The notes under the pieces were generated by a model. That model was given only the letters and a program-made list of their open reading frames with translations, had not been told where the DNA came from and did no database searches. Shown piece by piece: positions 2,563 through 60,315 of a stretch of 60,482 bases of DNA. A program made the translations under genes and the position numbers. Source of the DNA: Nitrospira sp. (GTDB taxonomy: Bacteria > Nitrospirota > Nitrospiria > Nitrospirales > UBA8639). Position 1 is the first letter of the stretch, and each line of letters begins with the position of its first letter. The stretch spans positions 1 through 60,482 of the forward strand of contig WTGX01000026.1 of NCBI GenBank assembly GCA_011523385.1, read 5' to 3'.

Positions 2563-2579
2563 GCTGAGCACCAGCCTTC

Positions 2580-2614
2580 TACCTCCCCTACCCTTCCTTA
2601 CAAAGGAGGGGAAA
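2580..2614. repeat. Intergenic hairpin repeat, type A (copy 1)
   Basis: CCTCCCCTACCC followed by a hairpin with arms CCCTTCCTT and AAGGAGGGG around ACA. A near-identical copy lies at 7431-7465 and a modified inverted copy at 46861-46920. It fills the dop-prcB gap. Confidence 0.8.
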
Positions 2615-2618
2615 AAGG

Positions 2619-5791: not shown

Positions 5792-5920
5792 GGAAGCTTC
5801 CCCTGCTCTATCGCTGAAACCCTTGTATTGATAGGGCTAAACCCAAATCCCACCCGCCTCACGCCGGGGGGCAAATTCTAGCACTGGTTTTCAGAAAGGG
5901 TCAATATATACGGGGCCGTT

Positions 5921-6568
5921 CTACCGCGATCGCCATTTGCGCAGTTGCGCGGCATACCTCGTTACGGCCTCACGTGAAGACGCCGCTTGAAAAATGGAAG
6001 AAATGACGGCAACGCCCACGGCGCCGGCCGCCATCACGTGCTCCACGCGAACCGGCGTCAGCCCACCGATCGCATACACGGGAATGGTACAATGCCGGAC
6101 GGCTTCTCGAATCACGTCAATACCCAACGGGGGACCATACTGTTGCTTGGACGGCGTCTCATACACCGGTCCGAGTACCACGAAGTCCGCGCCATCCTGC
6201 TCGCTTTGCAGGGCCTCGTCCGCGGAATGGACCGACTTCCCGATGAGATAGCCGTTGCCCAGGGATTTCCGGGCCTCTTTGGTCGGCATGCTGTCCGCAC
6301 GAAGATGCACGCCTGCCGCCCTGGTCGCGAGAACCAGGTCCACGCGGTCATTGATTAAACACGGAACACGAAAGGGACGCGCCAATTGGCGAACCGCTTC
6401 CACAAACCGTAGAAGCTCACGGGTGCCGAGGTCTTTTTCCCGGATTTGGATCATCATCCCCTGTTCGGGAATGATGTCTTCGAGGATTTCAAGAAATCTT
6501 TGCTCTCCGGTCTGGTGCCGGTCGGTGACCACGTACAAAGGAGGGAGAGGGCGCGTTGTCACAGACAC
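5921..6568 (-). CDS. thiE: Thiamine-phosphate synthase
   Basis: A 215-residue TIM-barrel enzyme that joins hydroxymethylpyrimidine pyrophosphate and thiazole phosphate to give thiamine phosphate. It carries the family signatures YVVTDR near the start, 'IQIREKDL', 'LINDRVDLVLA' and the phosphate-binding 'YAIGGLTP'. The start is GTG (6568). It is the last gene of thiS-thiG-thiE, 23 bp after thiG. No TPP riboswitch was recognised upstream of the operon. Confidence 0.95.
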   Translation of the reverse strand: MSVTTRPLPPLYVVTDRHQTGEQRFLEILEDIIPEQGMMIQIREKDLGTRELLRFVEAVRQLARPFRVPCLINDRVDLVLATRAAGVHLRADSMPTKEARKSLGNGYLIGKSVHSADEALQSEQDGADFVVLGPVYETPSKQQYGPPLGIDVIREAVRHCTIPVYAIGGLTPVRVEHVMAAGAVGVAVISSIFQAASSREAVTRYAAQLRKWRSR

Positions 6569-6591
6569 CGAAGGGCTCGTTCAGAGTGTGT

Positions 6592-7365
6592 CTACAGCAT
6601 GCCTTCGATCGGGCTGCTTGCGGTAGCATAGAGTTTTCGGGGGATGCGCCCGGCTTTGTACGCCAACCGGCCGGCTTCGACCGCGTACTTCATGGCTTCG
6701 GCCATGGCAACAGGTTCCTTGGCCCCCGCGATCGCGGTATTCATCAACACCGCGTCCGCTCCGTATTCCATGGCTAACGCGGCATCGGAAGCAGTGCCCA
6801 CGCCCGCGTCCACAATGACGGGGACGTGTACGGTTTCGAGGATGATCTTCAAATTGTAGGGATTGCGGATGCCCAACCCGGAACCGATGGGAGCCGCCAA
6901 GGGCATGACCGCCGGGCATCCGATATCGACCAGTTTTTGGGCCACGATGGGATCGTCGTTGGTATACGGCAACACCACGAATCCCTCCTTGATCAAAATC
7001 CTGGCGGCTTCGATGAGCCCGGCGGTGTCGGGAAACAAAGTCCGCTCATCGCCGATCACCTCGAGTTTCACCAGATCCGATACCCCGGCCGCGCGGGCCA
7101 AGCGGGCGTAGCGAACCGCGTCTTCCACCGTGTAGCAACCCGCGGTATTGGGCAGGATGGTGTATTGTTTGGGATCAAGATAATCCAGGAGATTCTCGGA
7201 ATTTCTGTCCGTGACGTTGACCCGACGTACGGCCACGGTGACGACGTCCGCGCCCGACGCTTCAATGGCTTTCTTCGTCTCGACAAAGTCCTTGTACTTG
7301 CCCGTTCCAACCCACAAACGAGACCGGAACTCCCTTCCGGCTATGGTCAAACGATCGTCACTCAT
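6592..7365 (-). CDS. thiG: Thiazole synthase
   Basis: A 257-residue TIM-barrel enzyme that builds the thiazole ring from deoxyxylulose phosphate, dehydroglycine/iminoacetate and ThiS-thiocarboxylate. The start '[19 protein letters not shown]', the Schiff-base lysine in '[10 protein letters not shown]' and the '[20 protein letters not shown]' phosphate site are typical. It lies between thiS and thiE on the same strand; a type A hairpin repeat sits in the thiS-thiG gap. Confidence 0.96.
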
Positions 7366-7430
7366 GGCCCGTCTCCATCTCTTGGGAGTCTTTTCTCCCG
7401 CTGTCTATCACTGCGCAATTCAAATGCCTC

Positions 7431-7465
7431 TACCTCCCCTTACCCCTCCTTACAAAGGAGGGGAA
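7431..7465. repeat. Intergenic hairpin repeat, type A (copy 2)
   Basis: A perfect 9-bp stem, CCCCTCCTT (7443-7451) and AAGGAGGGG (7455-7463), with an ACA loop. It overlaps the 3' end of thiS and supplies that gene's last codons and stop. Confidence 0.85.
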
Positions 7466-7697
7466 AAGCCTCACCGGACAGGACAACTCTAACCGGTGCG
7501 CCTCCGCCGATGAAGCTTAGAATTTCTATCCGGTCGCCTTCCTGTAACGTTTTGGCATCGAAGTCCCGTCTATCGAGGATTTCCAGGTTGACTTCCACGG
7601 CCACCCGTTCGACGTTCAGTTGTAAATCCCGGAGCAGGTCCGTCACATTGATCTCCTCACAAACCTGCCGCGGCTCCCCATTGACCTGGATGTGCAT
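7440..7697 (-). CDS. thiS: Sulfur carrier ThiS with a C-terminal tail
   Basis: A small ubiquitin-like sulfur carrier for thiazole synthesis, start ATG at 7697. Residues 1-66 are a normal-length ThiS ending FIGGG. Translation continues for 19 more residues (APVRVVLSGEAFPLLCKEG), and the end and stop codon lie inside a type A hairpin repeat. ThiS normally ends at Gly-Gly so that ThiF can adenylate the terminal carboxylate, so this form should need trimming or be inactive as made. It is the first gene of thiS-thiG-thiE. Confidence 0.9.
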   Translation of the reverse strand: MHIQVNGEPRQVCEEINVTDLLRDLQLNVERVAVEVNLEILDRRDFDAKTLQEGDRIEILSFIGGGAPVRVVLSGEAFPLLCKEG

Positions 7698-7853
7698 GCG
7701 TGATTGAAAACCCTCCGTCACTAACCGGCATCCTACGAGAGCCTCTCAAGCCTTGTCAATTTGGGAACGCGGGCGTCGGGCCGGTGCACCTATCATCGCC
7801 GGGCACAATCTTTTACAATAGACTCACTTCATCGTTTCTTATGGACTCACGGT

Positions 7854-8339
7854 ATGCCGACCGGTCACGACTCGAACCACGCCCTCGCCAATCTCTTTCT
7901 GTCCATGGCGGAATTGTTGAAGAAACACGAAGAAAACCCTTACCGCATTCGAGCCTATCAACGAGCAGCCGACACGATCGCTAACCTGGGATCGCCCGTC
8001 GAAGAACTGGTACGGACCGGGAATCTCCGACTCTTGCCCGGCATCGGGAAAGACCTTGCGGCCAAAATTCGAGAATACGTGGAAACCGGCGCGATCCAGG
8101 CCTATGAGGAACTCAAGACACCCTTGCCGCCCGCCATTCGACAATGGAGCGCCCTGCCCGGCCTTTCCGACCCTATCGTGCATGACCTGTACCATCGGCT
8201 CGGGATCCGGACGCTGGACGACCTGGAGACCCTGGCCCGTTCTCATATGTTGAGAACACGACCGGGCGTCGGCGTCACTGCAGACGAATTGCTGGTGGCC
8301 ATTCAACGTTTACGTGATGAGCAATTGCGGAGTGATTGA
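7854..8339 (+). CDS. Stand-alone PolX-type helix-hairpin-helix protein
   Basis: A 161-residue protein matching only the N-terminal DNA-binding part of family X DNA polymerases: 'HEENPYRIRAYQRAADTI', then the hairpin 'LRLLPGIGKDLAAKIREYV'. The polymerase palm and PHP nuclease domains are missing, and the downstream gene is unrelated. It may be a separate DNA-binding protein or the remainder of a split polX. I chose the ATG at 7854 because homology begins just after it. Confidence 0.75.
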   Translation: MPTGHDSNHALANLFLSMAELLKKHEENPYRIRAYQRAADTIANLGSPVEELVRTGNLRLLPGIGKDLAAKIREYVETGAIQAYEELKTPLPPAIRQWSALPGLSDPIVHDLYHRLGIRTLDDLETLARSHMLRTRPGVGVTADELLVAIQRLRDEQLRSD

Positions 8340-8424
8340 CCGGGCAGGAAGGCCTTTGATAAGGTCACTCGCCGTGCAGAACCGATGAAAAGGGCTACGC
8401 GCGCCCTGCCCCCAGAGGAAAGAA

Positions 8425-8661
8425 ATGGCCGTATCCGCATTTATCATGGTTAACGTGACGGGAGATCACACGAAAAGTGCGTACAAAACCATCACCCGCA
8501 TTCCCCTCGTCAAGAAAGTCGATGCCGTCACCGGTCCCTTTGATCTCGTGGTTCAGATTGAAGCGGACACGTTGGAAAGCCTCAACGAATTGGTCCTTTC
8601 ACGGATACGCGGCGTGGACGGCGTCGTGAAAACCAGCACCGCCATTATCCTCAACCTGTGA
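8425..8661 (+). CDS. Stand-alone Lrp/AsnC ligand-binding (RAM) domain protein
   Basis: A 78-residue protein equal to the C-terminal regulatory domain of Lrp/AsnC regulators without the helix-turn-helix. 'VAVTGPFDLVVQIEAD'-like segments (here VDAVTGPFDLVVQIEA) and 'SRIRGVDGVVKTSTAIIL' are typical. Such proteins form amino-acid-binding oligomers; the ligand is unknown here. AGAGGA precedes the ATG. Its stop region overlaps the 3' end of convergent ctpA by 11 bp. Confidence 0.9.
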   Translation: MAVSAFIMVNVTGDHTKSAYKTITRIPLVKKVDAVTGPFDLVVQIEADTLESLNELVLSRIRGVDGVVKTSTAIILNL

Positions 8662-9961
8662 CTCCCGATTCGAGGGGGTGCAGGTCCTTGAAAACTTTCC
8701 AGGTCTTGAGCAACTCGATCGCCTTTTGAAGCTGCACGTCCTTTTTCATGAGTTCTGCTTCAAGATCCTCCGGCTTCTCCGCACCGGCGTCCGACTCAGA
8801 TGAAGGGCCGGCCTCCGCTTCCGGTGAGGGCGACTCTTTTGGTTCTTCATCCGCGGTGACCGGTTTGGGCTCCACCACGATGTCCGGTTTGACGCCAACG
8901 GAATGGATCGACTCGCCGCGGGGCGTATAATATTTCGCCGTGGTCAGCCGAAGTCCCGACCCGTCCGACAACGGGAGAATCGTCTGAACGGAACCCTTCC
9001 CAAACGTCGTCTTACCCAGGATGACGGCTTTTCCCCAATCCTGCATGGCGGCCGCCACGATTTCCGACGCACTTGCAGAACCCTGGTTGACCAAGACGAT
9101 CATCGGATATTCCGGGGGATCCATCGGCGGGCTGGAACGATACTCATCCTTGCGACCGTCACGACCTTTAACCGACACGACCAACGTATCGGGCTGTAAA
9201 AACTGCTCGGATACCCCCACCGCCGAGGACAACAGGCCTCCGGGGTTATTGCGCAGATCCAGGATGAGGCCTTGAGTGCCATCGTCGTGCAATTTCACCA
9301 ATTCTTTCCCGAGATCCTGGGGCGTGGATTCCTGGAACTGTGAGACCCGCACGTAGCCAATGTGATCGTCGAGGAGCCGGGACCGGACACTTTGAATCTT
9401 GATCGTATCCCGGATCAGGGTGAAGCTCAGCGTGTCCGGGGTCCCTTCCCGCCGGACCGTCAGCGTGACCGAAGTCCCCTTGGGCCCCCGCATGCGTTGC
9501 ACGGCTTCCATCAGCGTCAGGTCTTTCGTCGGTATCTCATCGACCTTCAAAATCACGTCTCCGGCTTCGATACCCGCAGCGTGCGCCGGCGTTCCTTCGA
9601 TCGGAGCAATGACGGTGACGTGATGGTCCTTGATCCCGATCTGAATACCCAAGCCCTCGAATTCTCCCTTGGTTTCCACTCTCATTTCCTTATACATCTC
9701 CGGGGTCATATACGCGGAATGCGGATCCAAGGTTTTGAGCATGCCGCGAACGGCCCCATGAACAAGGTCGTTCGTCTGCACCTCTTCGACGTAATGCTTC
9801 TTGACTTGGGTCAAGACTTCCGCAAAAATTTTGAGTTCTTCGTAGGATTCACTGGCGTAGCCCGTTTTTTCGACACCCTTTCCAATCAGCAACCCCAGGA
9901 CGAGCGCCCCGACGACCACCAACCCTGAACCCCACGTGAATGAAGAGCGTTCCTTTTCCAT
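8651..9961 (-). CDS. ctpA: Carboxyl-terminal processing protease CtpA (S41)
   Basis: A 436-residue periplasmic serine protease anchored by an N-terminal hydrophobic segment (residues 13-27). A PDZ domain follows (about 95-180, 'VIAPIEGTPAHAAGIEAGDV'), then the S41 core with the nucleophile in 'NQGSASASEIVAAA' and the catalytic lysine in 'GKTTFGKGSVQ'. The C-terminal tail is low-complexity and acidic. These proteases trim or degrade envelope proteins, often regulators of peptidoglycan hydrolases, which fits its place downstream of ftsEX-envC on the same strand. Confidence 0.95.
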   Translation of the reverse strand: MEKERSSFTWGSGLVVVGALVLGLLIGKGVEKTGYASESYEELKIFAEVLTQVKKHYVEEVQTNDLVHGAVRGMLKTLDPHSAYMTPEMYKEMRVETKGEFEGLGIQIGIKDHHVTVIAPIEGTPAHAAGIEAGDVILKVDEIPTKDLTLMEAVQRMRGPKGTSVTLTVRREGTPDTLSFTLIRDTIKIQSVRSRLLDDHIGYVRVSQFQESTPQDLGKELVKLHDDGTQGLILDLRNNPGGLLSSAVGVSEQFLQPDTLVVSVKGRDGRKDEYRSSPPMDPPEYPMIVLVNQGSASASEIVAAAMQDWGKAVILGKTTFGKGSVQTILPLSDGSGLRLTTAKYYTPRGESIHSVGVKPDIVVEPKPVTADEEPKESPSPEAEAGPSSESDAGAEKPEDLEAELMKKDVQLQKAIELLKTWKVFKDLHPLESGVTG

Positions 9962-10002
9962 AACGACGTCCTAACTCTTTAAAAAGATAATGAACAAGTT
10001 TT

Positions 10003-10040
10003 CACCCTCGCCCCAGCCCTCTCCCGTCAAGGGAGAGGGA
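10003..10040. repeat. Intergenic hairpin repeat, type D
   Basis: CCCTCGCCCCAGCCC followed by CTCCC-GTCAA-GGGAG. Related 'CCCTCGCCCCTTGAGGG' copies cluster at 54361-54664 and 56408-56540. It lies between ctpA and envC. Confidence 0.7.
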
Positions 10041-10046
10041 ACGAAG

Positions 10047-11249
10047 TCACCGTTTGGCCAACCAGCGCAATGGATTCACCGGCTTGGTGCCTTTTCTCAA
10101 CTCAAAGTATAAAATGCTCCTGTTGGTCAATCCGGAGGAGCCGGTTTCCCCGAGCACGGCTCCCTTCGCCACCATTTCCCCCTCATTCACCAACAACTTG
10201 GAGGCATGAGCATAAAACGTAAAATAATTGTTGCCGTGATCCATAATCACAACAAGTCCGTATCCTCTGAGCCAATCCGCATAGACCACGTGGCCGCCTG
10301 AAACGGCCCTGATGTCACTCCCTTCTTTTGAGGCGATTTCAATCCCTTTCTTCCGGACGTACGTGTCAAACGCCGGATGCTTTTGCCGGCCGAAGACTCC
10401 CACCAAATCTCCGTCAGCCGGCCACAACAAGACGCCTCTTCGAAAGACATCCGTTGGGTGTTTCTTGATTGTTCCGGAAGCAATTTGACTGCGTTGCTCC
10501 AATTTTTTGAGCAGGATTTCCTTTCGGCTTTCAGCTTGATCGAGCGTGCGTAACATGAGTTCTTGAGAACGAGCGGTTTTTTTTAAACTCGACAGCACCA
10601 CGCGCTTTTGGGACTTCACGTCTCGAATGACGCTTAATTTTTCAGCGATGCGACTCTTCCGGGCGACCAAAGATTCCCGGATTTTCTCCTGTTTGGCATG
10701 GAGTCGCTCACTTTGAGCCACCTGTCTCCGGTATTCCTCAAACAGGTTGCGTTCCCACTTGGCCAGCGAGGAGAAATACAGCAAACGGCGTTGAAATTGC
10801 AGATAAGAAGTCGCGGCTGCCAACGGCGAGACCCAGCCGGCTCGTCCTTCCATATAGAGTCGTTTCAATCGGGTCCCTATCACGGCCTGTTTATCCCTCA
10901 TGTCCGATCGAAGTCCGGTCAACTGCGCATCAATTTTATCCAGTTCCCGGTCAATTTGCTTGATTTCCCGGTTGATTAAAGTCGATTCCCGCCGTTCCTT
11001 GTGCAACCGGCGATCAAGACGCTCGATCGATTGCAAGACCTCCGCTTGTTTTTTTCGTGACCGGTCCCGCTGCTCCCGGGTCTTCCGAATTTCCTGTTTG
11101 AGTTGTTGAAGGGTCTGTTTTTCTTTTTCAATTTTTTCCTGAAGAGAGGCTCCCCACGACCACAAAGGGGGCACCAAGGACAGCACGACACAACACGCGA
11201 GCACAAGGCGGCGTGTTTCAACCCGGCTTGCGGATCGCGAATTTCCCAT
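10047..11249 (-). CDS. envC: Murein hydrolase activator EnvC
   Basis: A 400-residue exported protein: signal segment, a long coiled coil (about residues 35-260) and a C-terminal LytM/M23 domain. The zinc ligands of active M23 enzymes appear lost: the usual H-x-G-x-D is KKGIEI and the usual LHFE is 'LYFE'. That degenerate state is typical of EnvC, which activates amidases rather than cutting peptidoglycan itself. It overlaps ftsX by one base, completing ftsE-ftsX-envC. FtsEX is expected to control it across the inner membrane. Confidence 0.92.
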   Translation of the reverse strand: MGNSRSASRVETRRLVLACCVVLSLVPPLWSWGASLQEKIEKEKQTLQQLKQEIRKTREQRDRSRKKQAEVLQSIERLDRRLHKERRESTLINREIKQIDRELDKIDAQLTGLRSDMRDKQAVIGTRLKRLYMEGRAGWVSPLAAATSYLQFQRRLLYFSSLAKWERNLFEEYRRQVAQSERLHAKQEKIRESLVARKSRIAEKLSVIRDVKSQKRVVLSSLKKTARSQELMLRTLDQAESRKEILLKKLEQRSQIASGTIKKHPTDVFRRGVLLWPADGDLVGVFGRQKHPAFDTYVRKKGIEIASKEGSDIRAVSGGHVVYADWLRGYGLVVIMDHGNNYFTFYAHASKLLVNEGEMVAKGAVLGETGSSGLTNRSILYFELRKGTKPVNPLRWLAKR

Positions 11250-12145
11250 CAGTTCCTCGCCTTCATCAAGCCGAAAACCGAGAGCACGCTACTTCCACAT
11301 CCTAACAGCATACCGGTCATCACCAAAAGAAACGAGACCCGGCCCGGGAAAATCGGGAGAATATGCTCCACGCCCACAAACCAACCCGACGCATCGAGTT
11401 CCAATCGAAAGAATTCGAACGCCCCTTTCAACAACGCGAGGGACAGACCACCGCCCATGGCGCCAAGGATCGTGCCTTCGATCACGTAGGGGATCGCAAT
11501 AAATACTCCCGTCGCGCCGATCAGCCGCAGGATCTCAATTTCTTCTTTTCTGGTGTGTAATGACAAACGGATCGTATTGGCAATAATCGTCACGGTGGCC
11601 ATGGCCAGAATCATCCCGATCACCACCGCTCCCAACTCAAAGTAACTGACCACCAACGTCAGCGTATCGACCCAGTCCTGACTGTACGCCACGTGGGTGA
11701 CACCGGGAAGCTGCTTGACGCGTTCCGCAAACGCACTCAGCGATTCGGTATCCAGAAATCGTGGGGACAGATTGACGACCACGGACGCGGGTAACGGGTT
11801 GGAGTCCATCTCTTCCAACAGGAGCGATTCCTCCGGAAATTGTTCGGAAAATTCTCGAAGGGCCTGTTCCCTGGACACAAACGTCAACGTTACGACTGCC
11901 GGTTCGGTCTCAAGACGTTTTTGGATCAGGGACACAACTTGCTCCGAAGCTCCAGGATCCAGGTAGACGATCACTTCAACGTCGCTCTGAAGCGTTCCCG
12001 TCACGTTTTTCAGATTCAGATACAGCAACAAAAACACGCCGAAACACACCAGAGTGAAGGCGGTCGTCACGATGCCGATCAGCACGTTTCCCCGATTCAC
12101 GCGGAGATTGTTCATCGCCTCCCGCAGGAGATACAGCGGCCGCAT
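11249..12145 (-). CDS. ftsX: Cell division protein FtsX
   Basis: An inner-membrane protein of about 298 residues with the FtsX layout: one N-terminal helix ('NVLIGIVTTAFTLVCFGVFL'), a large periplasmic loop, then three C-terminal helices. FtsX carries the ATPase signal from FtsE to periplasmic EnvC. The start ATG overlaps the ftsE stop (TGATG); a GTG three bases upstream is possible. A NotI site (GCGGCCGC, 12136-12143) lies in its first codons. Confidence 0.95.
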   Translation of the reverse strand: MRPLYLLREAMNNLRVNRGNVLIGIVTTAFTLVCFGVFLLLYLNLKNVTGTLQSDVEVIVYLDPGASEQVVSLIQKRLETEPAVVTLTFVSREQALREFSEQFPEESLLLEEMDSNPLPASVVVNLSPRFLDTESLSAFAERVKQLPGVTHVAYSQDWVDTLTLVVSYFELGAVVIGMILAMATVTIIANTIRLSLHTRKEEIEILRLIGATGVFIAIPYVIEGTILGAMGGGLSLALLKGAFEFFRLELDASGWFVGVEHILPIFPGRVSFLLVMTGMLLGCGSSVLSVFGLMKARN

Positions 12146-12813
12146 CACGAGGTTGCCTCCTGATCAGACACGACTCGGCCTTCCTGTAAATGAACGACCC
12201 GACCATTCATCTGCTCCACCACCCGTTCGTTGTGGGTGGCCAGGAGAATCGTCGTCCCCTCGGCATGAATCCGCCTGAACAATTCCACGATTTCTATCGT
12301 CAAGTCCGCATCCAAATTGCCCGTCGGTTCGTCGGCCAACAACAGAATGGGGCTGTTCACGATGGCCCGGGCAATACAAATGCGTTGTTGCTCGCCGGCC
12401 GAAAGTACCCCCGTGAGAATCTTCTGTTTATGCTCCATGCCGATGGCCTTCAGGACGTCCATCACTCGTTTGCGCGCTTCGCGTCTTTTAACACCCTGAA
12501 TGATAAGCGGCAGGAACACGTTTTCATAGGCGGTCTTTTTCGGCAGTAACTGAAAGTTCTGCAGCACGATCCCCATGGTGCGCCGCAAGTAGGGAATGGC
12601 ACCTCCACGTAACCTGGCGACGTTGCGGTTCTGGACGAGAATCTGACCCGAATCCGGAATCTCCGCACCGAAGATCACCTTCAACAGGGTGGTCTTGCCC
12701 GCGCCACTCGGTCCCGTGAGGATGACACATTCGCCTTTGTCGATCCGAAACGAGACGTCATCAAGCGCCACGCACCGGTCATAGAATTTGGAGACGTGGA
12801 ACAACTGAATCAT
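12145..12813 (-). CDS. ftsE: Cell division ATP-binding protein FtsE
   Basis: A 222-residue ABC ATPase with Walker A GPSGAGKTT, the signature LSAGEQQR and Walker B 'ILLLADEPTGNLD'. The 'MIQLFHVSKFYD' start and the 'LATHNERVV' switch are typical of FtsE. It forms the FtsEX complex that triggers septal peptidoglycan splitting through EnvC. It is the first gene of the minus-strand trio. Confidence 0.96.
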   Translation of the reverse strand: MIQLFHVSKFYDRCVALDDVSFRIDKGECVILTGPSGAGKTTLLKVIFGAEIPDSGQILVQNRNVARLRGGAIPYLRRTMGIVLQNFQLLPKKTAYENVFLPLIIQGVKRREARKRVMDVLKAIGMEHKQKILTGVLSAGEQQRICIARAIVNSPILLLADEPTGNLDADLTIEIVELFRRIHAEGTTILLATHNERVVEQMNGRVVHLQEGRVVSDQEATS

Positions 12814-12873
12814 CGTGACAACGGCTCGGCACGGCCACCTGTTCCCCGGCCCGTATGGTGATGTTCCGTGTGT

Positions 12874-13281
12874 TTACCAACGCCGATCATCGCCGGCCAC
12901 CTCAAAGGCGCTTTCGATGTGTTCAAGCACGGGAGACGCAGAACTCCCGGCATCATAGAGGAGCACGTCGAACCGGCACGGCTGACCTTCCAGGCGACGA
13001 CGCGCCAGGTAGCGGGCAGCCAATTGAATGAGTTGACGCTTCTTTTGTGCCGTCACCGCGTAGGCGACGCCTCCGTAACGATCCGTCCGGCGCGCTTTGA
13101 CTTCGACGAAGACCAACGTCTCTCCCACCCGGGCCACGATATCCAACTCACCGCGACCGACCCGCACGTTCCGCTCGAGAATCCGGTATCCTTTTCGGCG
13201 AAGCAACCTTTCGGCGGCAGCTTCGGCTTCCCTGCCCAGGAGTTGCCGGGTGAGACTCACACGCCCTCCCGCAAGAGACAC
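12874..13281 (-). CDS. YraN/UPF0102 family putative nuclease
   Basis: A 135-residue protein with the UPF0102 pattern: 'GREAEAAAERLLRRKGYRILERN', then 'GELDIVARVGETLVFVEVKAR', an E..D..E.K arrangement like PD-(D/E)XK nucleases. The biological role of the family is not settled. It overlaps rnhB by 25 bp and usually follows rnhB in bacteria, as here. GTG start is likely. Confidence 0.9.
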   Translation of the reverse strand: MSLAGGRVSLTRQLLGREAEAAAERLLRRKGYRILERNVRVGRGELDIVARVGETLVFVEVKARRTDRYGGVAYAVTAQKKRQLIQLAARYLARRRLEGQPCRFDVLLYDAGSSASPVLEHIESAFEVAGDDRRW

Positions 13282-13913
13282 CGTCGCACCGGACCAAAAC
13301 TGTGCCGGTGAAGCGGACTTGGTCCGAACTGACGGAGTAACCGGAGATGCTCCGGCGTGGGATACCCCTTATGAACATGGAAGCGATACCGGGGATCCCG
13401 CCGGTGGTATTCGCACATAATCCGGTCCCGGAAGACTTTGGCCAGGATGGACGCTGCGGCGATGGAACACGAAAGGCGATCACCGTGAATCACGGATCGA
13501 TGGGGGATGCCGAAATCAGCCCCCAGGTGCCCATCGATCAACAAAAAATCCGGTGGGGCATGCAACTGGTTCACGGCCCGCTGCCAAGCCAGCCGCGTCG
13601 CGCCGAGCACGTTCAGCGAGTCGATTTCAGCCTCGGAGGCGACGCCAACCCCCCAAGCCGTGGCTGACTCGGTGATGACCGAAAACAGCTCTTCCCGTTC
13701 CGTGGGACTCACTTTTTTCGAATCATCGAGGCTCCGCAACAAAAACCGGCGAGGCACAATCACCGCTGCCCCGACCACCGGGCCGGCCAGGGGGCCACGC
13801 CCGGCCTCGTCCAGTCCGGCTACGCGTCGATAGCCACGGGTCCGTGCTTCCTCTTCGAGATCGCACGTGGGACCAGCGGCGCCCAACCCTATGGCGTCAT
13901 CGGTCAACGTCAC
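13257..13913 (-). CDS. rnhB: Ribonuclease HII
   Basis: A 218-residue enzyme that nicks RNA in RNA-DNA hybrids and starts removal of misinserted ribonucleotides. The catalytic 'VAGLDEAGRGPLAGPVV' block is clear, with the later acidic residues in 'DSKKVSPTERE' and 'LLIDGHLGADFG'. It starts with GTG 11 bp after rplS in the ffh-yraN operon. Confidence 0.96.
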   Translation of the reverse strand: MTLTDDAIGLGAAGPTCDLEEEARTRGYRRVAGLDEAGRGPLAGPVVGAAVIVPRRFLLRSLDDSKKVSPTEREELFSVITESATAWGVGVASEAEIDSLNVLGATRLAWQRAVNQLHAPPDFLLIDGHLGADFGIPHRSVIHGDRLSCSIAAASILAKVFRDRIMCEYHRRDPRYRFHVHKGYPTPEHLRLLRQFGPSPLHRHSFGPVRRCLLREGV

Positions 13914-13924
13914 GCGACATCAAA

Positions 13925-14356
13925 TTATTCGGCAGGATCCTCTGCCGGAGTCTCCGCACTTGCCGTCGCTGCAGGTTCGTTCCTGGAAGCCTTGGGTTTG
14001 TTGGCAGTCCGAAAATAATCCCGTTCAGCGACTTTGGCCCGCTTCCCGATCTTGTCGCGCAAGTAGTACAACTTTGCCCGGCGCACTTTCCCTTTGCGGA
14101 TCACGTCGATTTTCGCGATATTGGGCGAGTTTACCGGGAAGATCCGCTCAACCCCCACCCCATACGAGATTTTACGAACGGTAAACGTCTCACTGATTTT
14201 CCTGCCTTTACGAGCAATCACCACGCCTTCAAAAACCTGGACCCGTTCTTTTTCGCCTTCGATCACTTTCACGTGCACGCGAACGGTGTCCCCGATTTCA
14301 AAGACGGGGACCGGATTCACCGGGAACGTCTGCTCTAGCCGTTGAAGCCGATTCAT
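13925..14356 (-). CDS. rplS: Ribosomal protein L19
   Basis: About 143 residues, beginning [20 protein letters not shown]. '[19 protein letters not shown]' and '[16 protein letters not shown]' are hallmark L19 segments. An alanine/glutamate-rich tail extends the C-terminus. It lies 4 bp after trmD, in the conserved rpsP-rimM-trmD-rplS order. Confidence 0.97.
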
Positions 14357-14360
14357 GATG

Positions 14361-15140
14361 TTATCCTCCACTCTCACGGGGGGACACAGGGGTACCCCCC
14401 CTCCATTCACACTCCTGGGAAATATCCGACAGCAATTGTTGATCTTCCTCAGTTAACGAGTCCCCTTGCAACAAATCCGGTCGCTTGTAATAGGTGTTTC
14501 GCAAGGCTTCTTTTCGACGCCACCGCCGAATAGCCTCGTGATTACCCGAAAGCAAGACGTCAGGCACGCCGTATCCGCGCACCGTCTGCGGCTTGGTATA
14601 ATGGGGAAAGTCCAACAGGGGTTCGACAAATGAATCCTGTTCCACCGAGGCAGGATCCCCTACAACCCCGGGCACCAATCGTACGGCGGCATCGAGCATC
14701 ACCAGGGCCGGCAGTTCTCCCCCGGTCAGCACGTAATCGCCAAGCGACAGTTCTTCGGGCTCCAGCCGGAGCAGTACGCGTTCATCAAGACCTTCATAGT
14801 GCCCGCATATCCACACCAGCCGTCGCGCTTCCCGGCTCAACTCTTCGGCAAGGCCTTGCGTGAATGGCCGTCCCTGCGGTGACGGCACGATAATCCGCAT
14901 TCCACCCCGGTCCTCGTCCAATGCCTCGACCGCCCGGAAAATAGGCTCGGCCTTCATGATCATACCGGACCCGCCCCCGTAGGGTGTATCGTCGGCCACG
15001 CGATGCCGGTCGTCACTGTAATCACGAATATTGTGGATGCGAATCGACACCAACCGCTTGTCCCGGGCACGCTTCACGATCGAATGCGATACGACGTTCT
15101 CCACCATTTCGGGGAACAAGGTAAAAATGTCACACTGCAT
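14361..15140 (-). CDS. trmD: tRNA (guanine37-N1)-methyltransferase
   Basis: A 259-residue SPOUT-class enzyme that methylates G37 of tRNAs to prevent frameshifting. '[12 protein letters not shown]' start, '[17 protein letters not shown]' and '[10 protein letters not shown]' motifs identify it. The ATG at 15140 overlaps the rimM stop by 11 bp. Confidence 0.97.
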
Positions 15141-54337: not shown

Positions 54338-54670
54338 GGCCGCAGGTCAGTTAATAACCTCCCTCGCCCCTTGAGGGCCGGGGTGAGAGGTCTCCAGCGT
54401 CTTTTGGCTTTGTTTTTATCTTCATCTGTCATCCTCGACATCTTTAATCGAGGATCCAGGGTTTTTGCTTCTGTCTTACTCCCTCGCCCCTTGAGGGAGA
54501 GAGCCTGCCCCGGACTTGATCCGGGGGCTGGGGTGAGGGGCTCCAGTGTCTTTTGTCTTTGCTTTTGTCTTTATTTGTCATCCCCGACATCTTTAATCGG
54601 GGATCCAGGCTTTTGCTTTTGTCTTACTCCCTCGCCCCTTGAGGGAGAGGGCCGGGGTGAGGGGTATTCG
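54338..54670. repeat. Array of type B and type D hairpin repeats
   Basis: Three 'CCCTCGCCCCTTGAGGG' modules (54361, 54481, 54631) alternate with two hairpins: ATCCTCGA...TCGAGGAT (54431-54455) and ATCCCCGA...TCGGGGAT (54580-54604). The two hairpins differ by paired changes that keep the stem. No gene occurs between nadE and the DGR. Confidence 0.85.
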
Positions 54671-54832
54671 TATTTCCTGTATTGCCAGCACAGGAAGGAA
54701 CAAGCCGGCACCCCTTCCCCGCCGAAGCGGGGCAAAAGGGACACCGGTCGTGCATTCATCATGACCGTCCCTGGACGCTCGTTCGCACACCCGGCGGTCC
54801 CATGAGACCACCGGCTCTGGCAGCGGAGCGTG

Positions 54833-54950
54833 CGGGCAATACGGAACCCGTTATTGTTGTTCCGGTTGCCGGGATTGTTCCTGTCGCGGTTCGCGGGTCG
54901 CACGTTCTCCGGATTGTTGTTCCAGGAACCGCCGCGCAACACGCGCTGGC
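54833..54950 (-). other. DGR template repeat (TR)
   Basis: The minus strand here aligns with the 3' end of the variable-protein gene (offset 3104 bp). It is rich in AAC/AAT codons at the diversified positions, as TRs are, and would encode '...GGSWNNNPENVRPANR...' if read in the variable-protein frame. Its RNA is the template from which the reverse transcriptase makes adenine-mutagenised cDNA. It overlaps the last codons of the reverse transcriptase gene in a different frame. Confidence 0.92.
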
Positions 54951-56029
54951 AAGGGGACGGTCAGGCTCCCGGGCCGGGGGTACCCGTCCCGAAAGATCGC
55001 GTGACGCAAGCGCCACGTATGGGCATGTTCGGCGTGAGCCACCCACGCCTCGACCCGGCACGCCACCTCTTCGCCCGTGACCCGGCCGCAGGCCAAGCAG
55101 TCACGCAGCCCCCGCAAACGATTGCGGAACCGTCGCACGTTCGCTTCCGGCAGACGACGCCACCCGCCGGGCAAAAGAACAAATCCCAAAAACTCTGCGG
55201 GTTCTTTGGTTTCCATGATCCGCGTTTTACACGGATGCAGACGCAGGCGACGGCCTTCCAGAAACCCGGCAATCCGGTGCCGCCAGTCATCGAGACGATC
55301 GAGGTCGTCGTGAAACAGGGCAAAGTCGTCCACATACCGCAGGTACCCCTTGGCCCGCAGCACCTCCTTGCAGAAATGATCCAGGCCGTCCAGATACACG
55401 TTCGCAAAGAACTGGCTGGTCAGGTTGCCGATGGGCAAACCACGCCGCCTGCCATACGGGGTGAACAAATCGTCTCCGGGATAATAGTAGTTGACCGGCT
55501 CCTGAGGGTTGGACCCGTCGATGATCCGGTCCGCCAGGGCCAGGGTCCGGTGACAGGTGATACGGCGACGCAGGTCACGTTTCAACAGATCGTGGTCGAT
55601 GGACGGAAAATACCGCCGGATATCGCACCGCAACACGTACCGGTATTGCTCACGAAACGTCTCGTAGCGAGCCACGGCACGGTGCGTCCCTTTCCCTTTG
55701 CGGTTGGCGTAGCTGTCGAAGATAAACCCGCGCTCGAAGATCGGCTCACAGACCGCGCAAAAGGCATGATGTACCACGCGATCGCGAAACGGCGCAGCAG
55801 ACACGACCCGGTGCTTGGGATCGAAGATCTCAATCGTGGTGTAGCGGCCCGGGCGATACTGGCCGGTCGTGAGTTCCCGCTCCAGGCGCAAGGCCTCGGT
55901 CTCCAGGTTCGCGAGAAACGTTGCGGCCCCGGGTTTGCTCCATTTGCCCCTGGCCGCTCGCCGGCCGGCAGCCACCAGCGCAGAAAAATTCGCAATGGCG
56001 TCAAACAGGTCATGAGCTTTCCTGACCAC
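54851..56029 (-). CDS. DGR-type reverse transcriptase
   Basis: About 392 residues from a GTG at 56029. Motifs: 'APFRDRVVHHAF', 'FDSYANRKGKGTH', 'LRCDIRRYFPSIDHD' (motif A), 'LPIGNLTSQFFANVYL' with SQ in place of the usual SP, and the catalytic 'YLRYVDDFALF'. The SQ variant and the opening 'HDLFDAIANFSALVAA' are features of diversity-generating retroelement RTs. The frame stays open upstream to 56188, but homology begins after the GTG and overlaps avd by about 20 bp. Its last 30 or so residues, rich in Arg/Gln/Glu, are encoded by the TR and are probably not catalytic. Confidence 0.95.
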   Translation of the reverse strand: MVRKAHDLFDAIANFSALVAAGRRAARGKWSKPGAATFLANLETEALRLERELTTGQYRPGRYTTIEIFDPKHRVVSAAPFRDRVVHHAFCAVCEPIFERGFIFDSYANRKGKGTHRAVARYETFREQYRYVLRCDIRRYFPSIDHDLLKRDLRRRITCHRTLALADRIIDGSNPQEPVNYYYPGDDLFTPYGRRRGLPIGNLTSQFFANVYLDGLDHFCKEVLRAKGYLRYVDDFALFHDDLDRLDDWRHRIAGFLEGRRLRLHPCKTRIMETKEPAEFLGFVLLPGGWRRLPEANVRRFRNRLRGLRDCLACGRVTGEEVACRVEAWVAHAEHAHTWRLRHAIFRDGYPRPGSLTVPLPARVARRFLEQQSGERATREPRQEQSRQPEQQ

Positions 56030-56372
56030 GATGCGTCTTTCTCCACGCGCCGATCTTGCGCCCGGTGTCATCCAAAGACCGGGCCGCAAACTCATACCGC
56101 CGAGTGTCCAGATAGCGCAAATCCCGGGCCAACCGGAACAAAAAGCGCAATTTCTCAATCCCAAGATTGGCACGGGCGAGAAACACATCCCGTTGCCGGG
56201 TATAGGTGGCTTCGATCAGGGCATCCAGGACGTCCAAGGCTGTACCCTGGATACGGTCCCCCAGGAGAAATTTCTGGCTACGGGGGAACCGTCCAACCGC
56301 CGGGACCAGCCAGAGGATGAACCGGTAATGCGCTTCCAGCGCGGGACCCGTCTCACGTGCCCGGTCTTGCAA
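56010..56372 (-). CDS. avd: DGR accessory variability determinant Avd
   Basis: A 120-residue four-helix-bundle protein: 'HYRFILWLVPAVGRFPRSQKFLLGDRIQ', 'ALIEATYTRQRDVFLARANLGIEKLRFLFRLARDL' and 'RRYEFAARSLDDTGRKIGAW' match Avd. Avd forms a basic pentamer that binds the RT and TR RNA and is needed for mutagenic cDNA synthesis in the Bordetella phage system. The start appears to be TTG at 56372; no ATG lies in frame nearby. It overlaps the RT start by about 20 bp. Confidence 0.93.
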   Translation of the reverse strand: MQDRARETGPALEAHYRFILWLVPAVGRFPRSQKFLLGDRIQGTALDVLDALIEATYTRQRDVFLARANLGIEKLRFLFRLARDLRYLDTRRYEFAARSLDDTGRKIGAWRKTHRGQESS

Positions 56373-56399
56373 CGTCCGGCTCGCGTCCTCTGCTTCGTT

Positions 56400-56608
56400 G
56401 ACTTTCTTCCTCGCCTCTTGAGGGAGAGAACCGGAATGAGGAAGGCATCAGCAGCTTTCTCTTCAGTCTTTCTTTATCGATCATCCCCGACACTTGACTC
56501 CGGTCTGAACAGAGGGAGAGGGCCGGGGTGAGGGGGCTCCAGCGTCTTTGTCTTTTCGTCTGTGAGAAAAAAGACACTGGATTCCCGAGTGCGCGGGAAT
56601 GACAGAGA
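56400..56608. repeat. Hairpin repeats upstream of avd
   Basis: Type D modules at about 56408-56442 and 56512-56540 and a type C hairpin, ATTCCCG...CGGGAAT (56581-56600). They separate avd from the SH3-like gene; no coding sequence is evident. Confidence 0.75.
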
Positions 56609-56672
56609 CTGTAGGTCGTGTGAGCGTGGCGTCACCCGACAAGCTTCTTGCCCCCTCATGGACTCTTCCTTT

Positions 56673-56712
56673 GTCGGGTTACGACCTTCGACAAGCTCAG
56701 GGCTAACCCGAC
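56673..56712 (-). terminator. Hairpin directly after the SH3-like gene
   Basis: Perfect 9-bp arms GTCGGGTTA (56673-56681) and TAACCCGAC (56704-56712) with a 22-nt loop, touching the stop codon of the minus-strand gene. It may end or reduce transcription into avd-RT. Confidence 0.45.
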
Positions 56713-57786
56713 CTATTCTGACTGTTCTTTTTCTTGTATCCGTTTCACCTGCACCCAATGATGGCCATCAGCCACCGTTTGAGTTCTCAACACGTTGACT
56801 TGCTCATCAGGGTAAATGACGCCGACGATATGGGCGTGCTCTCCGAGTCGAACCCGCAGGTAGACCGACCCGATTGCGGTCAGGATATCGCCCTTCTCGG
56901 GCAGACGATCCTTCTCGCCATCCCAGTTGAAATATTTCTCGTCCCATTTCAGGCCCGCTCTGGTGCCGACGTACACCCAGCCGTCCGCTTGCCGGGCCGA
57001 TTCCACAGACGGAATAGTCACAGATGGCAACACGCTCGGAGTTGGATTTGACGGTGGGGTTGGTTGCGATTGTGAATCAGGTAGCGGAGATGGGAGCGTC
57101 TGGTCTTCTTTAGACTTCTCCGGTAAAGAGTGAGCGGGTGTCGGAGAATCTCCCTCATGAGTGCTTGTCACCGAAGACTCCGGACCCCTATCCGTGGACC
57201 CGGTCGACTCGGCTGCGGAATCTGCGGAGTTTTCCGCCGTGCTCGTATTTCGGGAACCGTCTGACTCATCTCTGGATATGGGGGAAAAGCCATTATTGTA
57301 GTCGCTCCATAATCCGAACAAAATTGCGGCCACTACAATTATTCCGATACAAACGGAACCCCACTTATTCTTCCCTGTCATCTCGGCTGAAACCTGCTTC
57401 TTCACCTCATTTGGGATTAACGCTTCGATTGTCCGTCCTGTCTGCTCCATCATCTCCTCTGCAACAGTTCTCGCTTCTTGGCGTGCTTCGATTTTCGCCC
57501 CATGTTCAATCCGAAACGTCATGAAGATAAATATCCCTGTAATGAGAATGCCAAAGAACGTAATAAGCGTTGTGAAGAATATTATCTGATACTGCTCGTT
57601 CAGGGTGCCGCCTGTAAGAAAACCACCAACAACGAGAAGAGGCGGTGTAAGACACAGCACGACCAAGACGATGAAAAAAGTTACCAGCAGCTTGAAGCCG
57701 TGCTCGTCAAGGCTGGCATAGAACTTTGATTCTTGCTTGGCCTGTGCAGGCGCAGCCGATTCATTTTTCGGACTTTCGTTCGCCAC
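56713..57786 (-). CDS. Membrane-anchored SH3-like protein (paralogue 2)
   Basis: A 357-residue protein with three predicted membrane helices (about 32-57, 67-92, 143-160), a Ser/Pro-rich linker (165-265) and a C-terminal SH3-like domain of about 85 residues beginning 'DGWVYVGTRAGLKWDEKYF'. The same C-terminal domain is found in the protein at 59533-60315, although the membrane parts differ. GTG start after AAAGGA. It lies between the DGR variable protein and avd. Function unknown; a partner or anchor for the variable protein is one guess. Confidence 0.8.
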   Translation of the reverse strand: MANESPKNESAAPAQAKQESKFYASLDEHGFKLLVTFFIVLVVLCLTPPLLVVGGFLTGGTLNEQYQIIFFTTLITFFGILITGIFIFMTFRIEHGAKIEARQEARTVAEEMMEQTGRTIEALIPNEVKKQVSAEMTGKNKWGSVCIGIIVVAAILFGLWSDYNNGFSPISRDESDGSRNTSTAENSADSAAESTGSTDRGPESSVTSTHEGDSPTPAHSLPEKSKEDQTLPSPLPDSQSQPTPPSNPTPSVLPSVTIPSVESARQADGWVYVGTRAGLKWDEKYFNWDGEKDRLPEKGDILTAIGSVYLRVRLGEHAHIVGVIYPDEQVNVLRTQTVADGHHWVQVKRIQEKEQSE

Positions 57787-57866
57787 GTGGTTTTCCTTTC
57801 GTTTGACTATGGGGTCACCTTAGACACGGGGGTCAACCAACGTACACAAACTTCACCTCACGCGAA

Positions 57867-57887
57867 CCAGGGGGCACAGCCCCCTGG
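57867..57887 (-). other. Perfect hairpin downstream of the variable repeat
   Basis: CCAGGGGGC-ACA-GCCCCCTGG, a 9-bp GC-rich stem with a 3-nt loop, 50 bp past the end of VR on the coding strand. In the Bordetella phage DGR a cruciform-forming hairpin 3' of VR helps mark the target site. With no T tract it is a poor terminator, so a DGR target role is plausible. Confidence 0.55.
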
Positions 57888-57920
57888 ACCCCCAAAGCCA
57901 GGACGTAAGGAGGTAAGGAT

Positions 57921-59465
57921 TCATGGGGTGAGCGCCCGGGCAATACGGAACCCGCTATTGACGTCCCGGACGCCGGGATTGTCCCAGCCGCGGTACGCGG
58001 GACGCACGTTCTCCGGATCGCAGAGCCAGCAACCGCCGCGCACCACGCGCCGGGAACAATCCCCCTCCCAACAATCTTCCGCCCACTCCCACACGTTCCC
58101 CAGCATGTCGTACAATCCCAACTCATTCGGAGCTTTTTCTCCCACCGCATGTGTCCTCTTCCCGCTATTCTCCCCATGCCACGCTCCGCCACCCGACCCC
58201 ACCACTGCCCCCCATTCCGCCTCTCGTAACAGTCGATACACCTGGCCTGTTTGACGTGACAACCACTGCACGTAGGCCTGCGCATCATGCCAATTGACAC
58301 ACGTGACCGGATGCCGGTCCGTCTGAGAAAAACCCGGATTGTGCCAACTGAAACCAGATCGCTCCCCCCACCCCTCTTCTTTGTTCCATATCCAACAGGT
58401 GTTGCCGGTACTGTGGCCGGTAGCCTGCACAAAGCGGGCAAACTCGCCCTTCGTCACTTCGTATTTGCCGACGGCGAACGGCGATTGGGAACGCTTCGCT
58501 GGCACCACCACCATCTCCGGACACTGCTCGCAATCACGGAAGGTCGATCCGGGCGTCAGTTCACCTGTTCTGCCTGCACCCGTGCCGCCCCCCGCCCGTT
58601 GCGGGTCCCCGGCCTGTTTCTTCTTGTCACAGGCCAGATCATAGCCCTGCGCCCGGTCCAGGGCCTGCCGGATGGTGGGATCGGCCTGGGCATTGTATAA
58701 CTGGTAGGGGGTGAACCCCTCGGCGTCCTGCACACACGGCTCCGCCCCGCCATTCAGCAAGGCCTGCACCACAGCGGGCAGACCGGAGCCGAGCCTGACC
58801 GCCAAATGCAACGGCGTGTCCCCGCCCGGCGTCTTGTGGTCCGGATTCGCCCCGGCCTTGAGCAACAGCGTCACGATTCTCCCATCGTTGGTGCCATCCT
58901 TGGCGAACCGCTGCAACACCGTCAGCCCCGCGCCATCCACCCGGTCCGGCTGCGCCCCGAGATCCAGGAGTGCCTTGATAACCGAGGCCTCATACGACCG
59001 GGTCACGGCCACGTGCAGCGGGGTCGACCCGTGGTGGTTGGTCCGGTGCAGGTCCGCCCCGTGTTGCCCCAACAGCCGGATGGCCGCGGGATGGTCCGAG
59101 GTTAAGAGCGCAGCCCCGCCCGTGCTGGCCCAGTGCAGGGGCGTATTCCCCTCTCCGTCTGGCAAGTTCGGGTTCCCGCCCGCTTGCAGCATGGAGGCTA
59201 GGTTCTTGACGGCCCCACGCTCGGCTGCCACGTGGATGGCCGCCCGTTGCAGCAGGACATCCACCGGCACGTTCGGGCTGACCCCTTTCGCCAACAGGGT
59301 CCGGACGTCGTCGTGCCATCGGTCGTCCTCCGCCGCATTGAACAGGCGCTGCTCATCCGCGGACACCGCCCCAGCTTGGCCGGCGGCCAGCAGGACGACT
59401 CCCAGGATCAGGAACCCGGCGAAAGGGAACCGGATGACGGCGATAGACTTTCTCAGACTCTTCAT
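57921..59465 (-). CDS. DGR variable protein: secreted ankyrin repeats plus FGE/C-type-lectin fold
   Basis: A 514-residue exported protein. Signal peptide (1-36), about five to six ankyrin repeats (40-275, e.g. 'GEGNTPLHWASTGG', 'HHGSTPLHVAV', 'GGDTPLHLAV'), a Gly-rich linker, then a formylglycine-generating-enzyme-like domain (about 305-512) with 'KYEVTKGEFARF', 'PVTCVNWHDAQAYVQWLS' and 'LGNVWEWAEDC'. Such domains adopt the C-type lectin fold used by DGRs as a diversified binding surface. The last 38 residues are the variable repeat. AAAGGAG precedes the ATG. Confidence 0.93.
   Translation of the reverse strand: MKSLRKSIAVIRFPFAGFLILGVVLLAAGQAGAVSADEQRLFNAAEDDRWHDDVRTLLAKGVSPNVPVDVLLQRAAIHVAAERGAVKNLASMLQAGGNPNLPDGEGNTPLHWASTGGAALLTSDHPAAIRLLGQHGADLHRTNHHGSTPLHVAVTRSYEASVIKALLDLGAQPDRVDGAGLTVLQRFAKDGTNDGRIVTLLLKAGANPDHKTPGGDTPLHLAVRLGSGLPAVVQALLNGGAEPCVQDAEGFTPYQLYNAQADPTIRQALDRAQGYDLACDKKKQAGDPQRAGGGTGAGRTGELTPGSTFRDCEQCPEMVVVPAKRSQSPFAVGKYEVTKGEFARFVQATGHSTGNTCWIWNKEEGWGERSGFSWHNPGFSQTDRHPVTCVNWHDAQAYVQWLSRQTGQVYRLLREAEWGAVVGSGGGAWHGENSGKRTHAVGEKAPNELGLYDMLGNVWEWAEDCWEGDCSRRVVRGGCWLCDPENVRPAYRGWDNPGVRDVNSGFRIARALTP
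57937..58050 (-). other. DGR variable repeat (VR)
   Basis: The 3' end of the variable-protein gene, aligned to the TR without gaps. From TR position 54850 to 54921 all 16 mismatches are at TR adenines (8 A to G, 7 A to T, 1 A to C), changing residues 481-483, 491, 493-495, 499, 501, 502 and 504. Non-adenine differences occur only toward the edges of the aligned block. Confidence 0.92.
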
Positions 59466-59532: not shown

Positions 59533-60315
59533 TCACATCCGCTTCACCTGCACCCAATGATGGCAATCCGCCACCGTTTGGGTTCTCAGCACCTGCACCT
59601 GTTCACCAAGAGCAATGGCCCCGACGATGGGAGCCTGACACCCCAATGGCATCCGCAGGTGGACCGACCCGGTTGCGGTCAGGATATCGCCCTCCCCGGG
59701 CAGGCGAGCCTTCTCGCCGTCCCAGTCGAAATATTTTTCGTCCCATTCCGGGCCCGACCTGGTGCCGACGTACACCCAGCCGTCCGCTTCCAGGGCTGAT
59801 GCCGCAGAGTGACTTGGTTTGGACTCAGCTTGCGCCGGGGGGACCGTTAATGAGGCTTTGGATGCGCAGTTGGACCGATCCGTTTTCTGCCAGCAACCGG
59901 TCTTTTCAGGCGGGCAGTTGAGATCGTCTAGCTTCCGGGAGAGCTCCTGTACGGTCAGGGAAAGTTTTTCTATCTTCTGAGAGGTCCCTTGGACGGTCTG
60001 GGACGTTTTGTTTACCTTCTGGAAGAGATCTTCGATCTTCTGGGAATCCCAGGATTTCTCATTTACGATCTGGACGATATGATAGGTCTCGTATGCCGTA
60101 CCACTAAGGCCAGTACCTACAAAAAAAAGAGCAGCTTCAAACAAAACTTTATGCCAGAAGCTTACTGGAAGATGCTTCCACGCAAGAACGGCGACGGTTA
60201 TCATCCCGATCAACATCAAAACCGTATCGACAAGAAACAGGGTTTGTATTCCATCACTGGATAAAAATTGATCGATAGAATTTAAAAGTCCAGCACGATG
60301 ATCAGACGGCGACAT
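59533..60315 (-). CDS. Membrane-anchored SH3-like protein (paralogue 1)
   Basis: A 260-residue protein with two membrane helices (about 25-45 and 52-72), a coiled-coil stretch ('SQKIEDLFQKVNKTSQTVQG' onward) and a C-terminal SH3-like domain starting 'DGWVYVGTRSGPEWDEKYF', clearly paralogous to that at 56713-57786. AAAGGAGG lies before the ATG. It is upstream of the variable-protein gene on the same strand, 67 bp away, and may be the first gene of the DGR operon. Confidence 0.82.
   Translation of the reverse strand: MSPSDHRAGLLNSIDQFLSSDGIQTLFLVDTVLMLIGMITVAVLAWKHLPVSFWHKVLFEAALFFVGTGLSGTAYETYHIVQIVNEKSWDSQKIEDLFQKVNKTSQTVQGTSQKIEKLSLTVQELSRKLDDLNCPPEKTGCWQKTDRSNCASKASLTVPPAQAESKPSHSAASALEADGWVYVGTRSGPEWDEKYFDWDGEKARLPGEGDILTATGSVHLRMPLGCQAPIVGAIALGEQVQVLRTQTVADCHHWVQVKRM

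Follow-up and report, generated by a model that had tools for sequence, protein, structure and literature searches.

A complete diversity-generating retroelement with an ankyrin-FGE target protein in Nitrospira sp. and its relatives in other phyla

Results

Organisation of the locus

The window analysed here is a whole stretch of 60,482 nucleotides from Nitrospira sp. (assembly GCA_011523385.1, contig WTGX01000026.1), and the element under study is a diversity-generating retroelement (DGR) which occupies positions 54702-59465 of the minus strand. It comprises a reverse transcriptase (RT), the accessory protein Avd, a template repeat (TR), a structured RNA and a secreted target protein bearing the variable repeat (VR). 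The order of transcription is target, membrane-protein gene, Avd, RT, TR and structured RNA, all on the minus strand. A preliminary description made from the letters alone had placed the RT, Avd, TR and VR-bearing target on this strand, and all four parts were found where it had put them. The features are summarised in Table 1. Related loci and genomes are referred to below by handles beginning with L and G.

Table 1. Positions of the features of the DGR and its surroundings in the window
Feature	Position	Strand	Basis or remarks
DGR reverse transcriptase	54851..56029	(-)	392 aa; PF00078 E=2e-18; IGNLTSQ and YVDD; PDB 8ub7
Avd accessory protein	56010..56372	(-)	120 aa; PF22296 E=3e-14; NF033474 E=2.5e-28
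Template repeat (TR)	54833..54949	(-)	30 adenines; 5' part forms the end of the RT coding sequence
Structured RNA (spacer-type element), directly 3' of TR	54702..54835	(-)	13-sequence alignment, covariance model R1
Variable repeat (VR), end of target gene	57937..58053	(-)	TR/VR comparison
Target (variable protein), 514 aa	57921..59465	(-)	Pfam Ank_2 E=7e-30, FGE-sulfatase E=1.4e-42; Foldseek
Target ankyrin-repeat part, about residues 77-281	58623..59237	(-)	Domain search
Target FGE-type domain, residues 319-510	57936..58511	(-)	Domain search and Foldseek
Post-VR pyrimidine-rich tract TTACCTCCTTACGTC, after target stop codon	57902..57916	(-)	Common to clade VR downstream regions
Post-VR hairpin/cruciform CCAGGGGGC-TGT-GCCCCCTGG	57867..57887	(-)	Position shared by most clade members
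Membrane protein lying between target and Avd, SH3-like domain at its C-terminus	56713..57786	(-)	Association only; weak SH3_3 E=0.03
Second membrane/coiled-coil protein with same SH3-like end, directly upstream of target	59533..60315	(-)	Association only
Dispersed repeat copies, one side of Avd-RT-TR unit	54373..54678		Families D3-D5
Dispersed repeat copies, other side of Avd-RT-TR unit	56387..56549		Families D3, D4

Reverse transcriptase and Avd

The open reading frame of the RT ends at 54851; comparison with relatives makes the GTG codon at 56029 the likely start, and the open frame itself reaches 56188. The DGR-specific motifs claimed in the preliminary description were recovered, as motif 4 has the DGR form xGxxxSQ (IGNLTSQ, residue 200) and the catalytic YxDD is present as YVDD at residue 232. 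The active site, whose breakage by a sequencing error had been named as a ground for refutation, is intact. The best match among solved structures was 8ub7 (E=2e-36), an entry titled 'Reverse transcriptase' which we take to be the enzyme of phage BPP-1. The Avd gene overlaps the RT start by about 20 nt, and the Avd-like nature of its product was confirmed by the bAvd family PF22296 and by the NCBIfam model NF033474 (DivGenRetAVD), which scored 98 bits against a curated cut-off of 80.

Models of defence and retron enzymes also matched the RT, with scores far below their curated cut-offs (Drt3a 42.9 bits against 200, retron_St85 39.4 against 235). If these matches were taken at face value, the RT would be a defence RT (DRT/UG) or a retron enzyme and the repeats an ordinary gene duplication. 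The SQ form of motif 4 and the Avd partner disagree with this, and the adenine-specific change of the TR described below is something that gene duplication cannot produce; because of the adenine bias and Avd this explanation is considered refuted, its probability being negligible.

Adenine-specific change between TR and VR

Over 117 nt, TR and VR differ at 19 sites, and 17 of these sites are among the 30 adenines of the TR (hypergeometric P=1.3e-10), in agreement with the earlier claim of an adenine-rich TR matching the 3' end of the target gene. No difference was located at an adenine of the VR, which gives the direction of change as TR to VR. Past the first quarter of the TR every change lies at an adenine. 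AAC and AAT account for 12 codons of the TR. A stop cannot arise by adenine change at any TR codon, and about 10^17 variants of the target protein are possible through its adenines. In other members of the RT clade described below (four of the five targets of L023, and L024, L028, L027 and L030) 14-19 differences were counted, all at adenines. Between loci the TRs are closer than the VRs, as for L022 with 5 TR against 22 VR differences over 108 nt. A DNA search with TR and VR and a search with the pattern of the tract following the VR gave no further target in the window genome; one near-match on contig 29 lies beside unrelated genes and was rejected.

The RT frame of the window enters the TR and ends within it. 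It crosses the whole TR in a different frame in L022, L024 and L025, and the RT of L023 stops at the first bases of the TR. Dual coding of the RT tail by the TR was rejected as a functional feature since the frames of the relatives differ, read through or stop earlier, and the overlap is regarded as incidental.

The VR of the spirochaete DGR L034 (652-747) appears to carry an in-frame TAG where the TR has AAG, a stop which adenine change itself would have created in the target. The RT of L033 (4631) has lost about 130 residues, 229 being joined to 362, and that of L029 (about 8468) is frameshifted; the TR/VR pair looks recent in both, and the defects are either assembly errors or recent loss.

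Structured RNA following the TR

A stretch of 134 nt starting at the TR end is kept in 13 loci. It is composed of a closing stem formed with the TR end, a hairpin, the conserved core GTCCAGGGACGGTCATGATG and a long hairpin. The consensus structure of the 13-sequence alignment contains 42 pairs, 20 of which show compensatory change. The double-change cells numbered 54, against 15.5 in shuffles and 7-15 with the pairing slid, and when the partner was slid by one to three bases the paired cells fell from 97% to below 48%. The covariance model scored 138 bits at the window element and matched every clade member used in its building. Several Nitrospirota DGRs of more distant kinship, and Microcystis, gave weak matches near their TRs; no Rfam family matched the element. 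The summary in PMC12875486 describes how, in phage BPP-1, the folded spacer behind the TR brings in the bRT-Avd complex and acts as primer for the cDNA; by analogy the window element would be a docking and priming site.

The model also found a second copy of the RNA element in L025 and in L036. The L025 copy is weaker (2604-2736) and lies without an evident TR. L036, from a metagenome-assembled genome (MAG) of Spirochaetia, holds two TR-plus-RNA units of the clade (6198-6328 and 8627-8759), about 2.3 kb apart on opposite strands and beside RT fragments only.

Landing site following the VR

A 9-bp hairpin lies 49 nt past the VR end. The same or a similar hairpin was located in L022, L024, two targets of L025, L028, L030, L032 and L033, and an imperfect one in L029. 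In BPP-1 the post-VR hairpin is needed for efficient homing (PMC3240598). The tract before the hairpin contains repeated CTTTACC-like words. Words of the form YTTRC after the VR numbered 23 against 1.7 expected in 10 clade loci, counts that are not independent because the loci are related, and 24 against 3.6 expected in 11 outside loci of Nitrospirota and cyanobacterial DGRs. No mention of such a post-VR tract was found in the open-access literature searched.

The two hairpin-bearing targets of L025 have the fewest non-adenine changes of that locus (2 against 4-13 in the others). The exceptions are L023, without a hairpin and with 0-1 non-adenine changes, and one L029 target which has the hairpin and 10 such changes. 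The hairpin as sole mark of an active target was rejected on account of these cases, and the L025 pattern is suggestive only. L025 belongs to a congener and carries eleven FGE-type target ends (817-14851) in a tandem array around one RT; two of the ends show the hairpin and near adenine-only change, and the others look like older copies.

Target protein

The target consists of a predicted signal peptide (read by eye), ankyrin repeats and a domain of the formylglycine-generating enzyme (FGE) type ending in the VR. The model of the FGE domain matched PvdO, formylglycine-generating enzymes and the DGR variable protein TvpA (2y3c) in Foldseek. The parts found together with the adenine-specific changes support the earlier proposal of a complete DGR diversifying a secreted protein of FGE/C-type-lectin fold. 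Its further designation as a surface or periplasmic binding protein holds as far as the predicted signal peptide goes, the target being an ankyrin-FGE fusion. PADLOC gave ankyrin-level matches only for this protein.

The FGE tip is always last in the clade targets, whatever the front domain. The fronts were identified as ankyrin (window and L032), Sel1 with ankyrin (L029 and L033, with a peptidoglycan-binding match in L033), Ser/Thr kinase (L023), caspase-like C14 with peptidoglycan-binding (L024) and SH3 (L028), and a TIR protein adjoins the target of L030.

RT clade and horizontal transfer

Among 84,980 species genomes scanned, 15 loci were detected. The window RT belongs to a clade of 13 rows, itself included, with support of 100/100, drawn from Nitrospirota, Binatota, Latescibacterota, Pseudomonadota (alpha and gamma) and Myxococcota. 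The nearest Nitrospirota RTs outside the clade, from the window's own order, are about 50% identical, as are those of cyanobacterial plasmids. The preliminary description had treated the element as a chromosomal DGR of this kind of bacterium; the chromosomal location stood, and the element is not particular to Nitrospira, its RT clade spanning five phyla.

The identity of the RT to that of the window was compared with the identity of the housekeeping protein NadE. The values were 76% against 49% for L023 of Latescibacterota, 76% against 40-55% for the alphaproteobacterial L028 and 71% against 33% for L029 of Binatota, compared to 79% against 75% for the congener G013. Because the RT stays at 71-76% across phyla while NadE falls to 33-55%, horizontal transfer is concluded, and this sequence comparison indicates that the cassette passed between unrelated bacteria. 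The contigs of L023, L028, L029 and L025 measure 2.9 to 5.7 Mb and bear chromosome titles, which makes mis-binning unlikely for these four. It is possible for the short contigs of L022, L024, L031 and L033, and L022 especially may belong to a Nitrospira. Phage and plasmid records contained no RT of more than 60% identity, and IMG/VR gave none. Related RTs were present in 22 of 296 sampled genomes. DGRs in Nitrospirota have been recorded previously (PMC3521204).

The jk18x bins (L022, L024) derive from Ircinia sponges (PMC9531527). Sponge Nitrospira have been matched to the reference genome Nitrospira SB0677 (L032; PMC12203066), and the name CAR2 (L026) resembles a sponge code. The clade is thus partly sponge-associated, which falls short of proven sponge-specificity. 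Among open-licence papers that mention both DGRs and sponges, titles and abstracts revealed none on DGRs of sponge symbionts.

Insertion site and loss in congeners

Four congeners (G003, G004, G005 and G012) have a sensor-like gene, called GAF-type by eye, upstream of NadE with no DGR between, and on this ground the window element is considered an insertion at the NadE site. An RT of the window kind was found in only three of 14 congeners. At the same site in G008 stands an FGE target whose end resembles a VR (L098, contig 44, 73-921); of the 27 differences between this end and the window TR, 18 lie at adenines (P=1.5e-7). No RT or RNA element was found in the G008 genome, where the contig of the target ends 72 bases beyond it and a missing piece is possible. 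G008 also has more non-adenine changes than the window, and its post-VR hairpin is decayed. In L032, which is the G004 genome, the TR is absent; the RT carries a frameshift and breaks off a short way past YVDD, beside a dispersed repeat. Loss of the DGR therefore occurs in this group.

These relatives raise the alternative that the window DGR has recently stopped as well, the VR recording past activity of what is now a relic. The broken RT and absent TR of the sister L032, the retention of only a target with a VR-like end in G008 and the small number of congeners keeping an RT would fit such a course. It is nevertheless improbable, as the RT, Avd, TR, RNA element and hairpin of the window are all intact, changes in the last three quarters of its TR are confined to adenines, and the decayed G008 differs from it in its non-adenine changes and broken hairpin. 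The DGR of the window is probably still active.

Neighbouring genes and repeats

The target gene is flanked by two membrane proteins which are otherwise unlike and share a 287-nt 3' end (81% DNA identity) encoding the SH3-like domain. Relatives of these proteins adjoin the targets of L022 and L032. Dispersed repeats bracket the Avd-RT-TR unit, and the truncated RT of L032 is also followed by a similar repeat. A long (GA)n/(TC)n run closes the window contig (60425-60482), where the assembly probably broke. The ankyrin repeats, the overlap of TR and RT, the RNA after the TR, the hairpin after the VR, the SH3-like neighbours and the cross-phylum RT clade are all additions to the preliminary description.

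Discussion

The results make it highly probable that the window holds a complete and probably working DGR which the lineage acquired through horizontal transfer. Several observations weigh against this reading. The model of the FGE domain is poor (mean pLDDT 65, below 50 in the VR segment), so the variable side chains are not mappable, and the domain lacks three in-frame segments kept by its relatives. Two of the 19 TR/VR differences are at bases other than adenine, within the first quarter of the TR. The loops of the post-VR hairpins are TGT or CTGTG, not the GRNA consensus of phage DGRs, and the five nearly all-adenine targets of L023 are without such a hairpin. The RT that is broken in L032 is 93% identical to that of the window.

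Among the known systems of targeted protein diversification in bacteria, DGRs are the fastest. In the mechanism proposed here, RNA containing the TR would be transcribed, and the RT-Avd complex would recognise the structure at its 3' end (54702-54835), where cDNA synthesis would start. The RT would misread the adenines of the TR, and the mutated cDNA would replace the VR of the target, guided by the common 3' end of TR and VR together with the post-VR tract and hairpin. The adenine-containing codons of the TR fall in the C-terminal segment of the FGE-type lectin domain. Each event would give the secreted protein a new binding surface, because the variable codons lie in a lectin domain behind a signal peptide and ankyrin repeats. 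The target presumably binds ligands at the sponge or the phage interface.

Two roles were considered for the target, each of them possible and neither reaching an even chance. In the first, the protein is a symbiosis factor; the secreted ankyrin-FGE protein would bind changing ligands of the sponge host or its matrix, its tip being retuned for each host. Ankyrin proteins of sponge symbionts alter phagocytosis, according to work cited in PMC8163846, and a signal peptide was read from the target sequence. Several clade members are sponge MAGs or are named like sponge bins. The basal branches of the clade point the other way, as they lie in L027, L030 and L031, whose bin names resemble those of planktonic and lake samples, and the kinase and caspase-like fronts of other members are not obviously host-facing.

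The second role is that of a sensor in a conflict system, whose FGE tip would sense invaders such as phages and whose swapped front would be an effector or relay. The Ser/Thr kinase, caspase-like C14, SH3 and Sel1-ankyrin fronts and the TIR protein beside the L030 target are consistent with it, and FGE tips behind conflict domains have been described for DGR targets of multicellular bacteria (PMC10907252). The window target itself agrees less well, since it has no known effector domain, seems secreted and gave nothing above ankyrin level in PADLOC. For the clade the two roles are about equal; for the window target there is a slight lean to extracellular binding.

A wider proposal, somewhat more doubtful than either role, is that one DGR lineage moves between phyla within sponge microbiomes as an exchangeable module, in which RT, Avd, TR, RNA, FGE tip and landing site are fixed and each host joins the tip to a secreted or signalling front of its own. 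If true, portability to new target genes would be conferred by the structured RNA together with the CTTTACC-like tract and hairpin of the landing site. The clade, which is at least in part of sponge origin, has members on closed chromosomes in different phyla, and its fronts suggest both host-facing and conflict roles. The value of the locus lies in this cross-phylum clade, in the covarying RNA and the landing signature, and in a natural loss series within the genus formed by congeners with an empty site, an orphan target or a broken RT. The RNA covariance model and the landing signature are handles by which elements, orphan targets and acceptor genes can be found without an RT search.

Comparison with known systems

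The element is of a known kind, a DGR, and is unusual for its cross-phylum spread. It resembles the DGR of phage BPP-1 (bRT, Avd, TR, spacer RNA, Mtd) in its RT, Avd and adenine-specific TR to VR change, in the structured RNA 3' of the TR and in the hairpin after the VR. The order of parts is different, being target-Avd-RT-TR with the TR after the RT and overlapping its 3' end, whereas the TR of BPP-1 lies between avd and the RT gene. The window DGR is also chromosomal, with an ankyrin-FGE target in place of a phage tail protein. Compared to the phage set of PMC3240598, the hairpin loop is not GRNA and its distance from the VR is 49 nt instead of 4-34. Overlap of the TR with the 5' or 3' end of the RT reading frame defines structural group 3 of DiGReF (PMC3521204); the window shares the 3' overlap with this group, although in its clade the overlap is incidental.

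The plasmid DGRs of the cyanobacteria Fischerella, Microcystis and Acaryochloris are similar in Avd, RT and the post-VR pyrimidine tract. The targets of Microcystis and Acaryochloris are annotated as FGE-type like that of the window, the TR follows the RT in Fischerella and Microcystis, and the weak RNA-model match of Microcystis lies at its TR end. Unlike the clade members, these DGRs have RTs only about 50% identical to that of the window on a separate branch, and no GC-rich hairpin was found after the VR in Fischerella and Microcystis. The conflict-system DGRs of multicellular bacteria (PMC10907252) share with the window an FGE-type tip behind swapped fronts and horizontal acquisition. They differ in that no STAND NTPase or trypsin-like partner was seen in the window, which instead has a secreted ankyrin front and SH3-like membrane neighbours.

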